Assembly (NCBI GenBank): GCA_021846945.1
Contig: JAJZVZ010000015.1
Location: 1-47,382 of the forward strand
Direction of reading: 5' to 3'
From: Acidobacteriota bacterium
GTDB taxonomy: Bacteria > Acidobacteriota > Terriglobia > Terriglobales > Acidobacteriaceae
DNA length: 47,382 bases
The first letter of the stretch is position 1. Every line of letters begins with the position of its first letter. Shown here piece by piece: positions 387-37,639 of the stretch. The notes beneath the pieces were generated by a model, which worked only from the letters and a program-made list of their open reading frames with translations, did not search any database and was not told the origin of the DNA. The position numbers and the translations under genes were made by a program.

Positions 387-735
387 CTACTGAACTGCCC
401 CGGGCTCGGCCTTGAAGATTGCGTCGAGCATCAGGTTCTGCGCCGCCAGAAGCTCGTCGAGGTCGGTTTGAGTGTATCTGTCCATAGTGAACCTCGAATC
501 GCTCTGGCGCAGCGCGGTCTGCGCCGTCTTCGGGTCCACCTTCTTCTTCGTCGTTAGGAAACTCGACAAGCTGTGGCGGAACTGGTGGAAGCCGAAGCGC
601 TTCACCCGTTTGCCCTTCTTATCGAAGTAGATGGGTACTTCCACCTCTGCCTTCTCTTTTTTCCCTTTCTTCCTTACCGTTCTGATTACCTTGATATTGG
701 TGGTTGTGAGAACGCCAGCTTTAACAGCAGCTGGA
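387..735 (-). pseudogene. Tyrosine recombinase (integrase) C-terminal remnant
   Basis: The frame encodes the C-terminal catalytic part of a tyrosine recombinase: FGFHQFRHSL supplies the H-x-x-R box and MDRYTQ supplies the tyrosine nucleophile, about 40 residues later. The usual G-H-S-D box reads RQSD, so the histidine is replaced. About 115 residues remain of the roughly 350-400 of the family. The open frame continues upstream into IS66 tnpB sequence at about 735, where the integrase similarity stops, so the 5' part was lost when IS66 DNA joined it. It lies just inside the tRNA-Val fragment and is likely the relic of the island integrase. Confidence 0.75.
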
Positions 736-799
736 TACCCTTGGCCGTCATAAGTAAGGACACGCACCGTCGTTGCTCTGCGGCTGCGAAACAAAAACA
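736..799 (-). pseudogene. tnpB: IS66 TnpB, 3' fragment left of the recombinase element
   Basis: Read on the minus strand, this encodes MFLFRSRRATTVRVLTYDGQGY, characteristic of the central part of IS66 TnpB (Orf2). The matching N-terminal half of tnpB is found 3.3 kb away at 4138-4269, so one tnpB gene has been split by the element between. On its left side the TnpB frame runs without a stop into the tyrosine-recombinase remnant at about 735, a second junction. The last part of TnpB and any tnpC are missing. Confidence 0.75.
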
Positions 800-800
800 T

Positions 801-823
801 ATGCCCGCCACACTGCACCCATC
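801..823 (+). repeat. Left terminal inverted repeat of the recombinase element
   Basis: ATGCCC, seven variable bases, then TGCACCCATC. Its partner in opposite orientation is at 4113-4135, with 17 of 23 positions identical. Confidence 0.65.
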
Positions 824-908
824 TTGTTTTTGTTTGTTTCGCCGGCGAGCGGTTCGTTTTTTCATGACCGTTTTTCCCTTTCAACGCGGCGATCTGTTCG
901 GCCGTGGG

Positions 909-2900
909 TTAGACATAAAGGTACTCTGTTCTGTAGTTCGACCGATAACCGATGATACGGCCTTCCCGGCGCCAGTGGGTGATGGTCAAGTCCTTCACCC
1001 TGATTTTGCGGGCCATTTCCTTGAGCGTCAGCATCCCTTTCTCTCGTAACCGCTGGCGTCGAGTCCTGAGACCCGATTGCTTACAGATCCAGCCGACGAT
1101 ATGGACATTGAACGCACGGCCATCGCCGGAGCGAAGACCACGTGCGTTGAGAAGATCCACGATCTCGCAGTACTCGTGCTCACCCAGCAACTCATCGATC
1201 ACTTCCACCACCTCGGGTCTGGTTCTGGAAAGCACACAGAAGGGCAAGGGTAGCGGCAGCTCAAGAGTCTTCACGGCCCCACCCCGGAAACGTACCTGCG
1301 CGATGATCTTCTCTTCTTTCCGAAGGGTCACATCTTCCAGGAGTAATCGGGTCATGCGCTTTCGTTCTCGATAAGGAAGGCTTGGATCGTTCCAGACTCG
1401 GGGAAAATCCGTAGCCAAGGCGCGGATTCTTTCCCGTTGCTCCGCGCGTAAGGTGCTCTGCTCGCTCTCCTGCTGGTGCTCGTATTCTTCCTGAGCCGAA
1501 CGCAGATCTCGCAATTTGCTGTTCCAGTCCGCTTCCAGTTGATCAGCAACCAGACGGTTGTCGGGATCCACCTGCAGATAGCGGCGACGCGCCAGGTCTG
1601 CTTCTTGTTGCGCGCGCTGGACCACCTGCCGGCGAAGGCAGTCCACTTCCTTGATTCGCGTTTCCACTTCCTGCTCGATGGCCAGCGCCACCTCCAGGTT
1701 CAACGGATTGATGGCTGCCAGCAACAGTTCGCCAAGAGCCAAGTCAAGATCACGGCCGGAGATATGCTGGCATTGCTTTTCTCCATATCGGGAAGCGGCA
1801 TGCCCACAGTTGTAATCCGGATACAGATGGCCACGCCGTTTGTGATAGGACACATGCATGCGTCGGCCACATTTTCCGCAGATTGCCAGCCCCTGAAGCA
1901 AGGCCGGACCTTCTCGCGGGGGAGTCTGCTGCCGCTGGCATCGGTATTGCGTAGCGTTCTCCTGGAGCTTCTTCTGATTTTGCTGGTACTCTTCCCAACC
2001 GATATATCCTGCGTGCGCGTTGGGAATAAACGCGTACCATTCCTCGGGTTCCACCTTCTTTTTTGTCCGCTTCACCTTGCCGTTGGGCAATTGCACAGAT
2101 CGTGTGCGTCCGTAACCGTACGCCCCGGCAAAGCGCGGACAGGACAACACCCACGCGGCCCGATAATAGCCCAGCGGCCTCCACACCAGTTCTCCACTAT
2201 GCACGCCTCCCCAGACACGGTTCGGGAACTTGAGACCCTCCTGACGAAAAGCCTTCACCACCGCCAGCGCCGATCCTGTCCGCCGAAACGTCGCAAACAG
2301 ATGCCGGAAGCTTTCCTGAACCTGACCATCGGGATCACGCTCTACCTGGCCGCGAGACCCGTAGACTAACCCCGTCGGAAGCCGTCCACCCAGTTCTCCA
2401 CGCCGCGCCTTCTGCAAGAGACCACCCCGCAGCCGCGCACGGATCAGATGTAATTCCACTTCGCTCATCGTTCCTTTTAGGCCCAGCAGCAACCGGTCGT
2501 TGAAGTTCGAAGGATCATAGAGGCCGTCTTCGTCCAGCAGCAGCGTGGACGTGAGCGCGCATATCTCCAGCAATCGATGCCAGTCGCTGGAGTTGCGCGC
2601 CAGACGCGAGACCTCCAGACCCATTACGATCCCGGCGCGGTTCATGCTGACCTCGGTGACCAGCTTCTGGAATCCTTCCCGCTCGACCACGCCGCTGCCC
2701 GACTGTCCCTGGTCGCAGTCGATGACCACGATCTGCTCAAGCGGCCATCCCAGCGCCAAGGCTCGATCCCGCAGTCCATATTGCCGTTGGCTGCTCTCCA
2801 CGTTTTCCCGAACCTGCCGAAGCGTGGATTGCCTTACATAGAGGAAAGCATTCCGGCTCAGATGCTCGGCCTGGACCTTCTGATGGGTTTCACTGTTCAT
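909..2900 (-). CDS. Large serine recombinase (resolvase/invertase superfamily)
   Basis: Site-specific recombinase of 663 residues. The N-terminal catalytic domain starts with YVRQSTLRQV, where Ser25 is the expected nucleophile, and contains EVSRLARN. A recombinase domain follows, then a zinc ribbon (CGKCGRRM with a second Cys pair about 30 residues on), a long charged coiled coil (about 400-490), and a C-terminal helix-turn-helix-like segment. I chose the ATG at 2900 because GGAGGAG sits five bases upstream and the ATGA overlap with the preceding gene implies translational coupling; an in-frame start at 2915 lies inside that Shine-Dalgarno region. Large serine recombinases integrate and excise phages and conjugative or mobilisable elements. 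Here it is the probable mobility enzyme of the element split into IS66 tnpB. Confidence 0.9.
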   Translation of the reverse strand: MNSETHQKVQAEHLSRNAFLYVRQSTLRQVRENVESSQRQYGLRDRALALGWPLEQIVVIDCDQGQSGSGVVEREGFQKLVTEVSMNRAGIVMGLEVSRLARNSSDWHRLLEICALTSTLLLDEDGLYDPSNFNDRLLLGLKGTMSEVELHLIRARLRGGLLQKARRGELGGRLPTGLVYGSRGQVERDPDGQVQESFRHLFATFRRTGSALAVVKAFRQEGLKFPNRVWGGVHSGELVWRPLGYYRAAWVLSCPRFAGAYGYGRTRSVQLPNGKVKRTKKKVEPEEWYAFIPNAHAGYIGWEEYQQNQKKLQENATQYRCQRQQTPPREGPALLQGLAICGKCGRRMHVSYHKRRGHLYPDYNCGHAASRYGEKQCQHISGRDLDLALGELLLAAINPLNLEVALAIEQEVETRIKEVDCLRRQVVQRAQQEADLARRRYLQVDPDNRLVADQLEADWNSKLRDLRSAQEEYEHQQESEQSTLRAEQRERIRALATDFPRVWNDPSLPYRERKRMTRLLLEDVTLRKEEKIIAQVRFRGGAVKTLELPLPLPFCVLSRTRPEVVEVIDELLGEHEYCEIVDLLNARGLRSGDGRAFNVHIVGWICKQSGLRTRRQRLREKGMLTLKEMARKIRVKDLTITHWRREGRIIGYRSNYRTEYLYV

Positions 2901-3172
2901 AACGCTCCTCCGCACACCAGAGCGATCACTGCTCCTCCCATGAATCGAATCACTTCATCCTGCACAGGGAATGGCACACTGGCCACTTCCTCTGAGGACA
3001 CCGCCATCGATGGCACGGGCGCGATCAACTCGCCCGCCACCTGCATCCACTTCGCCATCCCTTGGGCCATCAATGCCCCTTGACCCAGCCGCGAACCAGA
3101 AGTGCGGTCCCGTGTCAGCACGTACGAACGCAGAGCTTCGTACTGCTCCGTGAGCATCGCCGCCGGCAACAT
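2897..3172 (-). CDS. Small conserved protein of the recombinase cassette, unknown function
   Basis: A 91-residue protein beginning MLPAAMLTEQYEALRSY, with no recognised domain; the C-terminus is hydrophobic (FMGGAVIALVCGGAL). It is coupled to the recombinase by a 4-base ATGA overlap and lies 23 bases after the HTH gene, so the three genes form one operon. The frame is open further upstream, but that extension is antisense-like composition overlapping the HTH gene, so the ATG at 3172 is preferred. Its position suggests a recombination accessory factor, which is inference from context only. Confidence 0.6.
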   Translation of the reverse strand: MLPAAMLTEQYEALRSYVLTRDRTSGSRLGQGALMAQGMAKWMQVAGELIAPVPSMAVSSEEVASVPFPVQDEVIRFMGGAVIALVCGGAL

Positions 3173-3195
3173 CTGTCTGCGGCCCGGCTTGCCAG

Positions 3196-3678
3196 CTATG
3201 GCTTGCCTCGTTTTTTTTTCGCGGCCACCAGCGCCCGCTCCACCGTTCTGCGATGCACCCGCACGGCAAATTCCTTTTGAATCCGCTGCACCAGTTCCGG
3301 CATTGCAAGCGACGGCTCCTGAGCGCGAGCTCGTTCCGCAAACGACACGATCTCCCGTGTCAGCTTGTGCCCTTCTTTGGGGCCGCGGCGCCGGGGAATA
3401 AGACCCACCAGCCCTTCGCGCGTAAAATCCTGTCGCGCTTTGTAGAAAGCCGGACGCGAGAAGCCGAAAGTGGCGGCAACGGTGGCGATCGGCATCTCTT
3501 CCTTTTCGACCCGGCGCAGCATCTCGTACTTGACCTGGGTCAGGTCCTGAGGATCGAAGAAGCTCTCCTCCAGAAACAAACGATCCCGGATGGTCCCCGC
3601 ACGGGAATTGAGCGTTCCACTTTGGCGGAGTGTCTGGACCTTGACGGTTGCTCTGGGGGAGGAACGAGTGATTTTCAT
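3196..3678 (-). CDS. Helix-turn-helix protein of the recombinase cassette
   Basis: A 160-residue basic protein. Residues about 60-85 (IATVAATFGFSRPAFYKARQDF) form a transposase-type HTH, followed by the linker LVGLIPRRRGPKEGHK and a second helical segment (PELVQRIQKEFAVRVHRRTVERAL) resembling the DNA-binding half of IS630/IS481-type proteins. There is no DDE catalytic domain, so it is not a transposase on its own. It is the first gene of the operon leading to the recombinase. A palindrome upstream (3712-3729) could be its operator. It may act as a regulator or a recombination-directionality factor, both speculative. Confidence 0.7.
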   Translation of the reverse strand: MKITRSSPRATVKVQTLRQSGTLNSRAGTIRDRLFLEESFFDPQDLTQVKYEMLRRVEKEEMPIATVAATFGFSRPAFYKARQDFTREGLVGLIPRRRGPKEGHKLTREIVSFAERARAQEPSLAMPELVQRIQKEFAVRVHRRTVERALVAAKKKRGKP

Positions 3679-3827
3679 ATGTAAGTATAATTACGCCTAT
3701 ATTGAGGGAGTGTGCAAACATTTTTGCACGCAGAGTCAAGATAATAAATGGACACCTTGCGTACTCGCCGCCAACTTCCTCCTTACGCGTAGGCGTATTT
3801 ATCTTTACACATGCGGCGCAATTTGCT
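3679..3827 (-). promoter_or_regulatory. Candidate promoter/operator with perfect palindrome
   Basis: Between the DUF5372 and HTH genes lies GTGCAAA-CATT-TTTGCAC (3712-3729), a perfect 7-base inverted repeat with a 4-base spacer. On the minus strand TTGCAC in its distal arm could be a -35 box with TAATTA 18 bases downstream as -10. A second imperfect palindrome, GTAAGTATAATTAC, covers 3681-3694 just before the HTH start. This is consistent with autoregulation by the HTH protein. Confidence 0.4.
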
Positions 3828-4145
3828 TTACATGCCATGGCCCCTCGCTTTCTCCATCTGCCCCACCAGATCGCACAGTTTCAACAGGCATCCGGAATGC
3901 AGTTGCGAGCGCCCCGCCGCCAACTCCACAAACGCGTCGCCCTTCACAAAGTCTGTCCAAGCCGCTGGAATCTCGCGCAGATGCCCATCGCCATCGTGAA
4001 AGTACACGAAGCTCTCAGTGAAAATACAGCGGTGCTCAACCAGATCAAATTGCTTGCCGTTCAGCGGATGGAAGGGATGCGTGATCCGTATTTGACGGCC
4101 TTCCTTGTTCGGGATGGGTGCAATTGAAGGGGCATTGAAAAACAC
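3828..4145 (-). CDS. DUF5372 family protein
   Basis: A 105-residue protein with ITHPFHPLNGKQFDLV near the N-terminus and REIPAAWTDF followed by FVELAAGRSQ in the middle, the pattern of DUF5372, a small family I know mainly from next to recombinase genes. Function is unknown. The only ordinary start codon before the conserved region is a GTG at 4145, which lies on the tnpB side of the element edge: the same bases are codons of the interrupted tnpB in another frame. The gene may thus borrow its start from the target, or use a non-standard start inside the element. It lies upstream of, and in the same direction as, the HTH-small protein-recombinase operon. Confidence 0.65.
   Translation of the reverse strand: MFFNAPSIAPIPNKEGRQIRITHPFHPLNGKQFDLVEHRCIFTESFVYFHDGDGHLREIPAAWTDFVKGDAFVELAAGRSQLHSGCLLKLCDLVGQMEKARGHGM
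4113..4135 (-). repeat. Right terminal inverted repeat of the recombinase element
   Basis: On the minus strand ATGCCC-N7-TGCACCCATC, matching the left repeat at 801-823 in inverted orientation. It lies two bases inside the AAAAACA core. Confidence 0.65.
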
Positions 4146-4269
4146 AGCCTGAAAAAGGATCCTCGGCCAGCTTCTCCTGGCACAGCCGCGCTAACGAATC
4201 AATGCCCTTGCGACCATCCACCGGCTCAATCGCCACCAGCACCCGCATCTGCGGCGTGATCTGAATCAT
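4138..4269 (-). pseudogene. tnpB: IS66 TnpB, N-terminal fragment
   Basis: Starts MIQITPQMRVLVAIEPVDGR and continues through LARLCQEKL and DPFSGCVF, the conserved start of IS66 TnpB. The ATG at 4269 overlaps the stop of the preceding tnpA by four bases (ATGA), as is usual for IS66. After SGCVF the similarity ends at the edge of the serine-recombinase element; the continuation of the same gene is at 736-799. Confidence 0.8.
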
Positions 4270-29867: not shown

Positions 29868-30159
29868 GAAACTCCCCAGTGAAGTAGCAGGCAGGGGGCG
29901 CTGATCATGCTTAGAAGCGGGGCTACCTGCCGAGGTATTTCGAGTTGGCTCCATAAGTCACTGTTCTTCTTTGCGCCCCGGCTTACAATCATCTGAGAAC
30001 CACTTGTGTAATAAATCACCGCCTTCACGCATCTTTTCTGATGAACATCATGTCCAAACAGCAATCGAATTCATGAGGAGCAAGCTCCGCCAAATGAAGC
30101 GCGCTTACCCAGGGGTGTTCTTGCACTCGAGTCTTGCAGGCAAGCTGGTTGGGTAATGG

Positions 30160-30235
30160 GAGCCGTATGACGCGAGAGCGTCACGTACGGTTCTGCGAGA
30201 GACTCAGGGTGAAATCCCCTGGGTCAACTCACCCT
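30160..30235 (+). ncRNA. Group II intron domain V-VI relic
   Basis: The 34 bases 30160-30193 fold as domain V: GAGCCGTATGACGC, GAGA tetraloop, GCGTCACGTACGGTTC, with the AGC triad near the base. A domain VI-like hairpin follows (GACTCAGGG pairing with CCCTGGGTC, one G-T pair), then AACTC with a candidate bulged A. No reverse-transcriptase/maturase frame lies upstream (only 290 bases to the GH3 gene), so this is the 3' end of a lost intron. The rest of 29868-30159 shows nothing recognisable. Confidence 0.7.
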
Positions 30236-33838: not shown

Positions 33839-34034
33839 TAGCCCACTGAATTGGACTATACAAACCGTTCATGGATCAAGATATTTCTAGTCTTGACACG
33901 CGCATAAGTGAGACGTTAGGATATGTGAGATTTTCCACATCAGGCACGACGATAGAATCCGAAGAGCACGCCCCTATCGTGATCGATTGTCCGATCGTGA
34001 CTGTATTTGCACTATTGTAAGGAGATATAAGACC

Positions 34035-35546
34035 ATGGCAAAGGTTACCCGGCGTAAGTCACTACAATTACTAGGCATGGCATCCGTTGCGCCACTGATG
34101 GCAACGAAGGGAAGTGGGAAGCTCTCGTTTCCGTCTTTGTTGCCAGGCTTTGTAGCTTCCGCATCGGTTGGTCCCAAACGTACAATTCCTCACGCACTGT
34201 TCGGCCTAAACGACGGGGCCAGTCTCCCCAGGCACATCGGTGAATATATAGATAATAGAGAGTTTATGAGGACATTTGCTCAGCTCGCACCAAGTATCTT
34301 GCGTTATCCAGGTGGGACTATAGCAAATTGGTTTGATCTAAGCACAGGAGAGATGCTAAAGCATCCTTCTGTTCCAAACACCAAGACCGTCGCAGATCTT
34401 AGCCGGTATCCTTTTACTTGGAGTGTCTATAAGAAACTCCTGGACCAGGCGGATTCCGAGTCGAGCATTGTCTTGAACCTGCTCACCGGAAATCTGGAGT
34501 CGCAAATCGCAGCATTGAAGAATGCACAGAAGGTCGGTGTGCCCATTACGCGGATTGAATTGGGAAATGAGTATTATCTTGCTGGCTCAGGCGGTAGTGA
34601 TGGATATGAAACCGTCTTCCCAGACGGCGTCTCCTATGCGCGTGTCGCAAATAAGTATGCCCGTGCGGTCAAGCGGGAGTTTCCGGATTGTCGAATCGGT
34701 GTATGTATGAACAGTAACGTTCATCTCCGAGTTCCCCGCTCTCGAGAGTGGAACCAGAGTCTCCTTAGCACAGTCGACTCTAGCATAGACGCTGTTATTC
34801 CACATATCTATCATGATCCTCCGAGTACGCTCTTCGGAGACAGGCACAATAAGCCCAAGACAGATGCACTGGCAGAGCGAGGCGGTCCTCAACTAATATT
34901 CTCGCTGGCTCTGGATCCGCGCCCGCTTTCCTTCATCCGTGAGGCTACTGCCAGCCGTCCATATGAAATCTGGATTACAGAAACTAACCTGCGAGATTTT
35001 GGGGGAAAGATTGCAGGCACATGGACGCACGGTCTCTTCGTTGCCTTTGACTTAATGAATCTGCTCAATCTTCCTACTCTGAATATGGCACTTCTTCATG
35101 ATGTGATCGGCCGCGTGATGTATGGCACAATTTTTAGCAAGAGTGATGGAAACACTTTTCCAGGGACTGACTTACATTACCAGCCCGATACCCTTAGTGC
35201 TTCCGGCATGGGGTGCATGATGCTCTTCCAGGCTGCCCGCGGAAAGCACTCGGCAGCTCCCCTTGAGTTTGACAGGAATCCGATGCAAACGGGATTGCTT
35301 GATAGCCGGGTGCCCTCCTTGTATGGTTGGGTATTTGACGAGGATTCGATGCTGGTATTAAACCTCTCTCCCCAGACTTGTAACCTGAAGATTCCTAAAC
35401 TGCGACTTGCGGGCTTGAAACACACTCAACTCTTTGGTGACCCGGTCAAGTACGTTGCTTCACTCTCCTCTTTAAAACAACTCCACGGGATAACTGGTAC
35501 GGAGATTAATTTGCCACCCTACTCAATGACGCGAATCGGAAGCTGA
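34035..35546 (+). CDS. Alpha-L-arabinofuranosidase-like glycoside hydrolase (clan GH-A)
   Basis: A 503-residue glycosidase. From ATG 34035, which follows AAGGAGATATAAGACC, the N-terminus VTRRKSLQLLGMASVAPLMA is a Tat-type signal. LRYPGGTIANWFD (89-101) resembles the conserved block of GH51-type enzymes, RIELGNEYYL has acid/base Glu179, and EIWITETNLR has nucleophile Glu316. A C-terminal beta domain (about 400-503) follows. Family placement near GH51 is by motif only, and another GH-A family is possible. It stands alone after the IS630 remnant. Composition is AT-richer than the GH2 gene, like the next sulfatase, suggesting shared origin. Confidence 0.75.
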   Translation: MAKVTRRKSLQLLGMASVAPLMATKGSGKLSFPSLLPGFVASASVGPKRTIPHALFGLNDGASLPRHIGEYIDNREFMRTFAQLAPSILRYPGGTIANWFDLSTGEMLKHPSVPNTKTVADLSRYPFTWSVYKKLLDQADSESSIVLNLLTGNLESQIAALKNAQKVGVPITRIELGNEYYLAGSGGSDGYETVFPDGVSYARVANKYARAVKREFPDCRIGVCMNSNVHLRVPRSREWNQSLLSTVDSSIDAVIPHIYHDPPSTLFGDRHNKPKTDALAERGGPQLIFSLALDPRPLSFIREATASRPYEIWITETNLRDFGGKIAGTWTHGLFVAFDLMNLLNLPTLNMALLHDVIGRVMYGTIFSKSDGNTFPGTDLHYQPDTLSASGMGCMMLFQAARGKHSAAPLEFDRNPMQTGLLDSRVPSLYGWVFDEDSMLVLNLSPQTCNLKIPKLRLAGLKHTQLFGDPVKYVASLSSLKQLHGITGTEINLPPYSMTRIGS

Positions 35547-35869
35547 ATTTCCGATTCGCGCGCTGATGAATGCTTAGCGCAGTCTCGTACCCTGGAACAA
35601 ATTTGGGAACATCGAATTTCGACATCGTTAGTAGTCAGAGTAATCTGCCGAGAGTCCTGCAGTTTGCATTACGTATTAACTACTAGTCAGTGTGCCTCCT
35701 AAGCCGGGGAAGAGATGTGCCCTAGCTCTCTTCCCCTAAGAGAATTCTATTGGATGCACTTTGCAAGGCAGTACGCAATAGTAGCACTTTCTCCAATGGA
35801 CCGCTATGGGTGCCAGCCGAAGATACTTCGGCAGCGGGAACAACGACAAAGATGAAGGGAATCACGAAG
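35547..35869. other. Intergenic with hairpin
   Basis: About 320 bases between the GH-A enzyme and the next sulfatase. GGGGAAGAG/CTCTTCCCC (35706-35714 and 35728-35736) forms a 9-bp stem; no T-run follows, so it could be a leader structure for the sulfatase. No gene seen. Confidence 0.4.
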
Positions 35870-37639
35870 ATGTCAACGATGACGAGGCGAGAATGCCTCT
35901 CTGTGCTTGGGGGAACATGCGCTGCAGCGCTCGCTCCATTTTCTGAGGCAGGTCCAGTCCGAAATCACCCAAATGTAATTGTGTTGCTGAGCGATGATCA
36001 AGGGTATGGCGACCTGTCGAGTCACGGAAATCCATGGCTAAAGACTCCCAACCTGGATAGATTCGCAACCCAAGGGACGGAATGTACGAGATTCTATGTG
36101 TCCCCCCTCTGCTCTCCATCACGAGCCAGCATTCTTACCGGTCGCTACAATCTTCGCTGTGGTGTGCATGGCGTAACTCGTGGCTTCCAGACGATGCACA
36201 GCGGAGAGACAACGCTCGCGACGGCATTTCGCGCTAATGGATACCGGACAGCCATCTTTGGAAAGTGGCACCTCGGTTCCGTATATCCTTATGTTCCATT
36301 TGCAGAGGGCTTTGAGGAGTTCATCGGCTTTAGAGAAGGCCATGAAATCAACTACTGGAACAGTATGCTGGAGCATAATGGCAATCCCTATCCGGTCAAA
36401 GGATTCATCACCGACGTCCTAACTGATGAAGGGATCCGCTACATTGAAAACCATCAGCATGAGCCATTTTTCTTATACATGGCATATAACGTCCCCCATA
36501 CACCCGAGGAGGCCCCCCGAGCGCTGTTTGAGCACTATGCAAAGATGAATATTTCGAAATACGATGCGGGCATCTATGCCATGATGGCGAACCTCGATAG
36601 CAATATCGGTAGGTTGCTCCAGCGGGTCGATGATCTTAGCCTCACAGGCGATACAATTGTCATCTTCCTGAGTGACAACGGCCCGAATGGCCACCGCTAT
36701 AACTGCAATTTCCTTGGAATCAAGGGGGATGTGAACGAAGGCGGTGTACGAGTGCCATTTTTTATTAGATGGCCTGGCCAAATTCCGCAAGGACACAAGA
36801 ATGCAGAAATGGTCGCGCACATCGATCTCTACCCTACACTCATGGCGCTCTGCAATATAACGCCACCCAAAGGACGACCTATCGATGGCATCGATCTGTC
36901 GCCTACCCTCCAAACAGGAAAGCCGTTGGCTGATCGTTTATTCTTCACGCACAAGCCGTCAGACAAACCACAACTGGCGGACGCGGGAGCCGTCCGAAAC
37001 AGCCGATTCTGCCTCGTCAACCGGGAGAAGCTCTACGACATCATCCAGGATCCCGATCAGAAGAATGATATTGCCAGCCATCACCCGCAAGAAGTTGCCG
37101 CACTCTCGAAGGCATATGAGAATTGGTTCCGTGATGTGACAGCCCATGTATCTTACGGTCGGCCGCTAATTCCTGTAGGCTATTCCGAAGAAAACCCTGT
37201 GACTCTTCCAGCGACCCAGGCCTATTTCAGTGGGGAGCTGCACTTTTGGGGTCGACACGGATGGGCTTGGGATTGGATTACCGGTTGGTCCCGAGTGCAA
37301 GATGAAATCTATTGGGACATTGATGTCGTTCAGGACGGTGAATATCTCGTAGACATCCGATATCTCTGTCCCGCTGAGGATGTAGGATCCCGCATTCAGG
37401 TTGTGGCCGGGATGAATCGCACTTCTGCCCTAGTTCGATATCCCACCCAGATGGATCCGATTCCAACTTTGGATCTAACTCCTCGGAAAGAGGTTCCGCC
37501 AATGCCGTGGGGAACTCTCGATGCCGGCGTTCTTCGCTTGTCCAAAGGCAGAACTAAGCTCTACCTGAAGGCGCTGAGCAAAACTGGGAACAACGTAATG
37601 GAAGTCAAGGCAGCGGTCCTCAGACGTATCATGCCTTGA
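35870..37639 (+). CDS. Arylsulfatase A-like sulfatase with C-terminal beta-sandwich domain
   Basis: A 589-residue sulfatase counted from ATG 35870, preceded by AAGGGA nine bases upstream; in-frame Mets at 35750 and 35852 are less likely. TMTRRECLSVLGGTCAAALA is a Tat signal, SDD (41-43) and C81-S-P-S-R85 are the metal and formylglycine motifs, GKWHLGS and FLSDNGPNG complete the active site, the latter with Asn in the D-N form of arylsulfatases. Beyond residue about 440 a beta-rich domain (DGEYLVDIRYLCPAEDVG, LSKGRTKLYLKAL) looks like a carbohydrate-binding-type extension, which is uncommon in this enzyme group. A terminator follows 8 bases after the stop. Confidence 0.92.
   Translation: MSTMTRRECLSVLGGTCAAALAPFSEAGPVRNHPNVIVLLSDDQGYGDLSSHGNPWLKTPNLDRFATQGTECTRFYVSPLCSPSRASILTGRYNLRCGVHGVTRGFQTMHSGETTLATAFRANGYRTAIFGKWHLGSVYPYVPFAEGFEEFIGFREGHEINYWNSMLEHNGNPYPVKGFITDVLTDEGIRYIENHQHEPFFLYMAYNVPHTPEEAPRALFEHYAKMNISKYDAGIYAMMANLDSNIGRLLQRVDDLSLTGDTIVIFLSDNGPNGHRYNCNFLGIKGDVNEGGVRVPFFIRWPGQIPQGHKNAEMVAHIDLYPTLMALCNITPPKGRPIDGIDLSPTLQTGKPLADRLFFTHKPSDKPQLADAGAVRNSRFCLVNREKLYDIIQDPDQKNDIASHHPQEVAALSKAYENWFRDVTAHVSYGRPLIPVGYSEENPVTLPATQAYFSGELHFWGRHGWAWDWITGWSRVQDEIYWDIDVVQDGEYLVDIRYLCPAEDVGSRIQVVAGMNRTSALVRYPTQMDPIPTLDLTPRKEVPPMPWGTLDAGVLRLSKGRTKLYLKALSKTGNNVMEVKAAVLRRIMP

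Follow-up and report, generated by a model that had tools for sequence, protein, structure and literature searches.

How did a 3.3-kb block of four genes come to lie inside an insertion sequence (IS) of the IS66 type, within its tnpB? This question is raised by a stretch of DNA from an Acidobacteriota bacterium (assembly GCA_021846945.1, contig JAJZVZ010000015.1, positions 1 to 47,382), which is 47,382 nucleotides long and is called the window here. The minimal mobile element occupies window positions 798-4138 on the reverse strand, or 3,341 bp plus one copy of the core, within IS66 tnpB. Very probably it was placed there by its own large serine recombinase, with relatives predicted to read a short motif at conserved codons of transposase genes. 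Because tnpB is interrupted here and most examined relatives disrupt other transposase genes, at a point four codons ahead of a conserved glutamate (Glu), these elements likely spread by inserting into other mobile elements, and breaking them, via their own recombinase.

The element and its IS66 target

The element and its surroundings comprise the following features.

798-4138, reverse strand: whole integrated element, between both core dinucleotides (attachment site (attP)-arm model GGTGCA-N16-TT-N16-TGCACC)
909-2900, reverse strand: large serine recombinase (PF00239, PF07508 and PF13408; Resolvase, Recombinase and Zn_ribbon)
2897-3172, reverse strand: small protein of 91 amino acids (aa), no family match
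3196-3678, reverse strand: helix-turn-helix (HTH) protein of 160 aa (PF13565 and PF13384; NF033577 and NF033545 below their cut-offs)
3828-4138, reverse strand: body of the DUF5372 gene (PF17342, E=4e-19), its start predicted to be cut away by integration
809-811, reverse strand: GTG, predicted DUF5372 start codon in the circular form, at the far end of the element (circle-joined frame)
796-797, no strand: core TT (AA on the plus strand), recombinase-side junction (end rule)
4139-4140, no strand: core TT (AA on the plus strand), DUF5372-side junction (end rule)
814-819, no strand: TGCACC arm, recombinase side (end rule)
4117-4122, no strand: GGTGCA arm (TGCACC on the other strand), DUF5372 side (end rule)
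4141-4269, reverse strand: N-terminal half of IS66 tnpB, the target (PF05717 positions 2-37, 28.7 bits against a cut-off of 26.6)
736-795, reverse strand: interior part of IS66 tnpB after the insertion (PF05717 positions 31-58, 22.6 bits, below cut-off; joined frame)

The genes are ordered DUF5372, HTH protein, 91-aa protein and recombinase, with nothing else between the two parts of tnpB, and TnpB profile matches are found on both sides. This arrangement bears out the original prediction of a four-gene serine-recombinase element within IS66 tnpB. The end rule, derived from the loci of related elements, reads GGTGCA-N16-TT at the right end and TT-N16-TGCACC at the left. The window conforms to this rule, with each arm located 16 bases from an AA/TT dinucleotide and the core embedded in a run of A nucleotides. 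The terminal inverted repeats that had been proposed are thus real and consist of the TGCACC arms, but the proposed 7-base core AAAAACA is not, as the true core is TT and the longer match is partly coincidence and would shift the tnpB frame. Joining the flanks at TT yields G-C-V-F-L-F-R-S-R-R in one open frame that runs through both tnpB parts. Relatives share the ends and the TT core, and so are not the collection of cassettes at unrelated sites with no shared ends that was considered as the contrary outcome.

Large serine recombinase elements are defined by a symmetric attP with a 2-base core and by resolvase, Recombinase and zinc-ribbon domains, and the window element has both this domain set and a 2-base core with symmetric attP arms. 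The recombinase reading frame comprises 668 aa. Its start was placed at the ATG at 2900, which overlaps the stop codon of the small gene (ATGA), on the basis that MNSE is the beginning of the consensus of 24 recombinase relatives. Residues R28, S30 and R104, which have catalytic roles, are invariant in these 24 sequences. A second serine recombinase, 36% identical, is present in the same genome (locus L002, C158). The HTH protein resembles the N-terminal HTH region of IS481 and IS630 transposases, as though acquired from a transposase.

No more of tnpB remains past position 736, where its reading frame passes into a stretch that weakly matches the terminal part of a tyrosine integrase; this IS66 copy is therefore decayed. 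This C-terminal integrase part (387-735, reverse strand; PF00589, below cut-off) follows the tnpB remnant at what is perhaps an old deletion joint.

The recurrence of this target was examined with a chimeric TnpB/element query, using the best 120 of 3,485 proteins plus P0205 (121 in total). In 17 of the 121 TnpB-type proteins the same codon is broken, with PFSG-x-[VL]-F followed by the element-like sequence [QEHK]-[CW]-xxx-CT, although the query and the pattern were both anchored at that codon, such that the count speaks for recurrence and for neither frequency nor exclusivity. Among the remaining proteins, 88 read through as TnpB and 16 are other cases. The genome itself carries one copy, and a search of 396 genomes of the phylum, its own included, yielded no other recombinase above 57% identity (E <= 1e-100), which leaves protein records as the basis of the tnpB clade. 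The IS66 flank of the window was matched in 27 of these 396 genomes (own included; many matches short). A check for empty sites among phylum relatives gave the anticipated result, with tnpB uninterrupted at the insertion place in 12 of 13 inspected loci (L130-L142). The expectation that the element spreads wherever IS66 occurs was supported in part. The same codon is indeed broken repeatedly, but tnpB is the target of this clade and not that of the wider family, which resides mostly in other transposase genes. No TnpB reading was obtained at the junctions of 80 wider-family loci (many flanks short).

Landing sites across the wider family

The wider family was collected by a scan of species genomes, from which the best 80 of 245 loci were taken (recombinases 51-57% identical to that of the window). 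Together with 6 plasmid and 19 phylum loci this gives 105 examined loci, with the left end resolved at 65 non-duplicate ones. The HTH gene is present in 79 of the 80 loci, and DUF5372 lies upstream in the same order in 72. At the eight loci without DUF5372, the contig starts at most ~330 bases from the HTH match, inside it or downstream of it.

At 56 of the 65 resolved left ends, a Glu codon lies four codons after the insertion codon in the antisense frame, whereas other offsets and frames tested give at most 11 of 65. The insertion codon encodes Lys at 36 of the 65 ends, Asn at 26 and another residue at three, and the core is TT in 62 cases, TA in two and CT in one. Flank translations point to particular host genes. 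With no motif assumed, right-flank translations of at least 30 aa, taken from 65 loci with near-duplicates counted, cluster by homology in two transposase groups (29 and 27 members) and leave nine singletons, and a single group takes in 45 of 57 left-flank translations. Right flanks (n=58) match Pfam rve in 31 cases and IS66 transposase in one, and the overlapping NCBIfam models for IS21 (26), IS481 (27) and IS3 (21). The transposase genes that host distant relatives are IS21, IS3/IS481/ISNCY-type and IS91/ISCR-type transposases and, in one case seen on the right flank only, IS66 tnpC. When one IS21 site (L080) was aligned to IstA, the insertion codon corresponded to residue 229 and the Glu to residue 233. 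The IstA DDE triad is given as D124, D187 and E233 (PMC11208146). In families other than IS21, we infer from homologous position that the nearby Glu is likewise the catalytic residue.

One alternative is a recombinase of low specificity, for which only insertions in ISs survive and multiply, these being harmless. ISs are common and dispensable, a few sites are in other genes including citrate synthase, and some large serine recombinases are multi-targeting (PMC10083194). However, survival bias cannot select one codon, and the offset to Glu is common to the 56 sites. Selection may still act on top of a sequence preference; the TnpB count has no bearing here, as that search was anchored at the codon. 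We regard this alternative as improbable.

Instead, we favour movement by a recombinase with its own sequence preference. In the proposed mechanism, the recombinase would excise the element as a circle, whose attP would recombine with a target at TT. The consensus of the 39 two-sided DDE sites is YTC-N8-SC-N-TT, with C at -2 in 36 of 39, and the recognised motif would resemble it. Genes for DDE transposases would carry the motif because the antisense of a Glu codon is YTC. By contrast, tnpB would supply YTC and TT in the sense direction at the same spacing, from the Phe-Ser and Phe of PFSG-x-[VL]-F. In the tnpB of the window, Phe-Ser of PFSG gives a sense TTC at equal distance from TT, though without a C at -2. 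This shared spacing of YTC and TT could be how one enzyme lineage switches targets. As landing sites, ISs would be many, harmless and movable, and landing would disable those copies.

Close pairs of elements bear on movement. The Polaromonas elements L021 and L032 are 96.3% identical whereas their host flanks are 79-80% identical; for Paraburkholderia L025 and L027 the values are 100% and 82% (right flank); and L006 and L019 share 94% with no alignable flank. A Polaromonas genome also contains three uninterrupted host ISs, 87-91% identical to the joined flank, as well as five places where IS halves lie ~3.3 kb apart, plus more diverged ones. The uninterrupted sites reveal neither duplication nor loss, and the core is TT in two of them. 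These pairs argue against a single ancient insertion per IS family that was thereafter carried along by IS movement, since the elements resemble each other more closely than the hosts do. In addition, the tnpB halves of the 17 interrupted cases represent 15 distinct forms, with identities of 70-100%. Composites do move jointly, as the element and host IS are 99-100% shared among Polaromonas L021, L022 and L023, but as a general account of the family this explanation is very improbable.

A recombinase tree (FastTree, 115 rows) relates lineage to target. All five IS91-type rows that it contains group in a single clade (support 100). A second clade (support 100) unites the window element with 11 close relatives and is placed with weak support among DDE-targeting rows. 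Label changes number 14 for DDE against 34.1 when shuffled and one for IS91 against 4.9, although near-copies favour such clustering. Matches to IS91/ISCR-type transposases were found at L020, L038, L039 and, weakly, L064. Three more loci (L046, L058 and L098) resemble IS91-type sites by motif only, with L046 and L058 lacking a family match; L058 has a TA core, and its interrupted codon would specify Tyr, versus Phe in the others. Separately, two loci with more divergent recombinases were noted, of which L164 (near 6120) is in IS66 tnpB at another place (LYY|K.LERGRF), antisense to tnpB, and L161 (near 6100) adjoins an annotated tnpB.

Several further observations weigh against the favoured reading. 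Of the 65 left ends, the 56 with YTC are by construction those with the Glu, the sites having been selected on Glu, and therefore only TT and the C at -2 add information. The Glu is missing from the other nine: four resemble IS91/ISCR sites (L058 on its motif alone, L064 weakly), L065 is DDE-like with Lys, L088 is half-rearranged, L028 is in citrate synthase, and L050 and L081 are elsewhere. Three of the 56 (L054, L062 and L073) are probably chance Glu matches, because their right flanks join neither transposase group. Outside the 65, L014 (3865-4695, from an archaeal metagenome-assembled genome) interrupts an integron integrase just before its Thr-Thr..Tyr region, with core AC. Among the three empty sites in Polaromonas, one carries CT at the core instead of TT. 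Finally, the small protein was recognised in just 10-12 of the 80 loci, which suggests either rapid divergence or a gene that differs between some loci.

In a Desulfopila genome, two 89%-identical copies (L028, 3927-4718; L054, 3648-4160) adjoin the two halves of a citrate synthase gene, one half each. The simplest account of this pair would be a host-gene insertion that was later rearranged by recombination between the copies.

With these points weighed, it seems on balance probable that this family of minimal elements is widespread and homes to the codon for the catalytic Glu in the DDE transposase genes of several IS families, has switched to IS66 tnpB and IS91/ISCR transposases as further targets, and thereby parasitises and disables transposons, with DUF5372 cut by integration and made in the free circle only. 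The borders, arms, core, joined frame, recurrence, empty sites and target classes are seen directly in the sequences, from which movement by the recombinase, the motif that it reads, expression from the circle alone and the disabling of working ISs are deduced.

The DUF5372 gene at the attachment site

The circular form was reconstructed by joining the right end, TT and the left end for 66 loci (near-duplicates and the window included). In all 66, an open frame connects DUF5372 with the codon that lies two bases past GGTGCA, such that attP lies within the coding sequence throughout, as in an integration-dependent gene switch. This codon is ATG in 47 cases, GTG in 15, CAG in three and CTG in one. 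A G-rich stretch resembling a ribosome-binding site is located just upstream in 63 of 66 and overlaps the arm itself; that of the window is weak (GATGGG). For production of DUF5372 from the circle, the conserved start codon would be a stronger sign than the frame, because with a fixed spacing a frame that holds for one locus holds for all. We predict that DUF5372 is whole only in the circle and is produced from it, and that its translation might be confined to this form because attP lies inside its 5' end. A start supplied by the host in the integrated state is possible, as some relatives' records begin there. The modelled structure of the protein hints at a weak SH3/KOW-like barrel.

Elsewhere in the window, the sole Rfam match at gathering scores is a group II intron domain (30158-30233, forward strand; RF00029, 55.9 bits).

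Relation to known systems

A member of the family resides in plasmid pNGR234a of Sinorhizobium fredii NGR234 (33989-37258), in what we take to be the NGRRS-1 repeated element (Perret et al. 1997, J Bacteriol 179:7488), known as one complex repeat. Its gene order and arms agree with those in the window: DUF5372, HTH protein, small protein (assigned from its position and not its sequence) and recombinase. The two differ in target, as the plasmid member interrupts a transposase frame at K|GRVER, a DDE-type site, close to an annotated ISNCY transposase. The suggestion that no such family had been described thus needs qualification. The rhizobial member appears to be long known, whereas neither the targeting rule nor the split DUF5372 gene turned up in our literature searches, and within that literature these two would be new.

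If the proposed reading is correct, bacteria harbour small elements that have become specialists for other mobile elements and recognise these by their active-site DNA. Such elements would constitute a natural brake on ISs while spreading harmlessly for the host, and would hold a compact gene switch driven by integration. Related recombinases with different short targets would also make the retargeting of serine recombinases testable.

Homing introns, inteins and Tn7 target conserved active-site sequences. The use of a conserved catalytic codon as landing site is common to these and to the window family, but the enzymes are different and the window family targets other mobile elements. With phiC31, Bxb1 and TndX-like elements the window element shares the Resolvase, Recombinase and Zn-ribbon domains and a symmetric attP with a 2-base core. 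It differs from them in being 3.3 kb long without cargo, and its family mostly lands at an active-site codon in genes that belong to other mobile elements. In Durrant et al. (PMC10083194), the enriched targets include a Mg-chelatase-type gene and competence genes, and DUF4368 marks the TndX-like multi-targeting clade; this domain is absent from the Pfam matches of the window at E <= 0.1, the recombinase included. Finally, the integration-dependent immunity of mycobacteriophage BPs (PMC4557955) likewise places attP inside a gene, that of the repressor, so that integration alters the product. There the repressor loses its 3' end, whereas DUF5372 would lose the side that carries its start codon.

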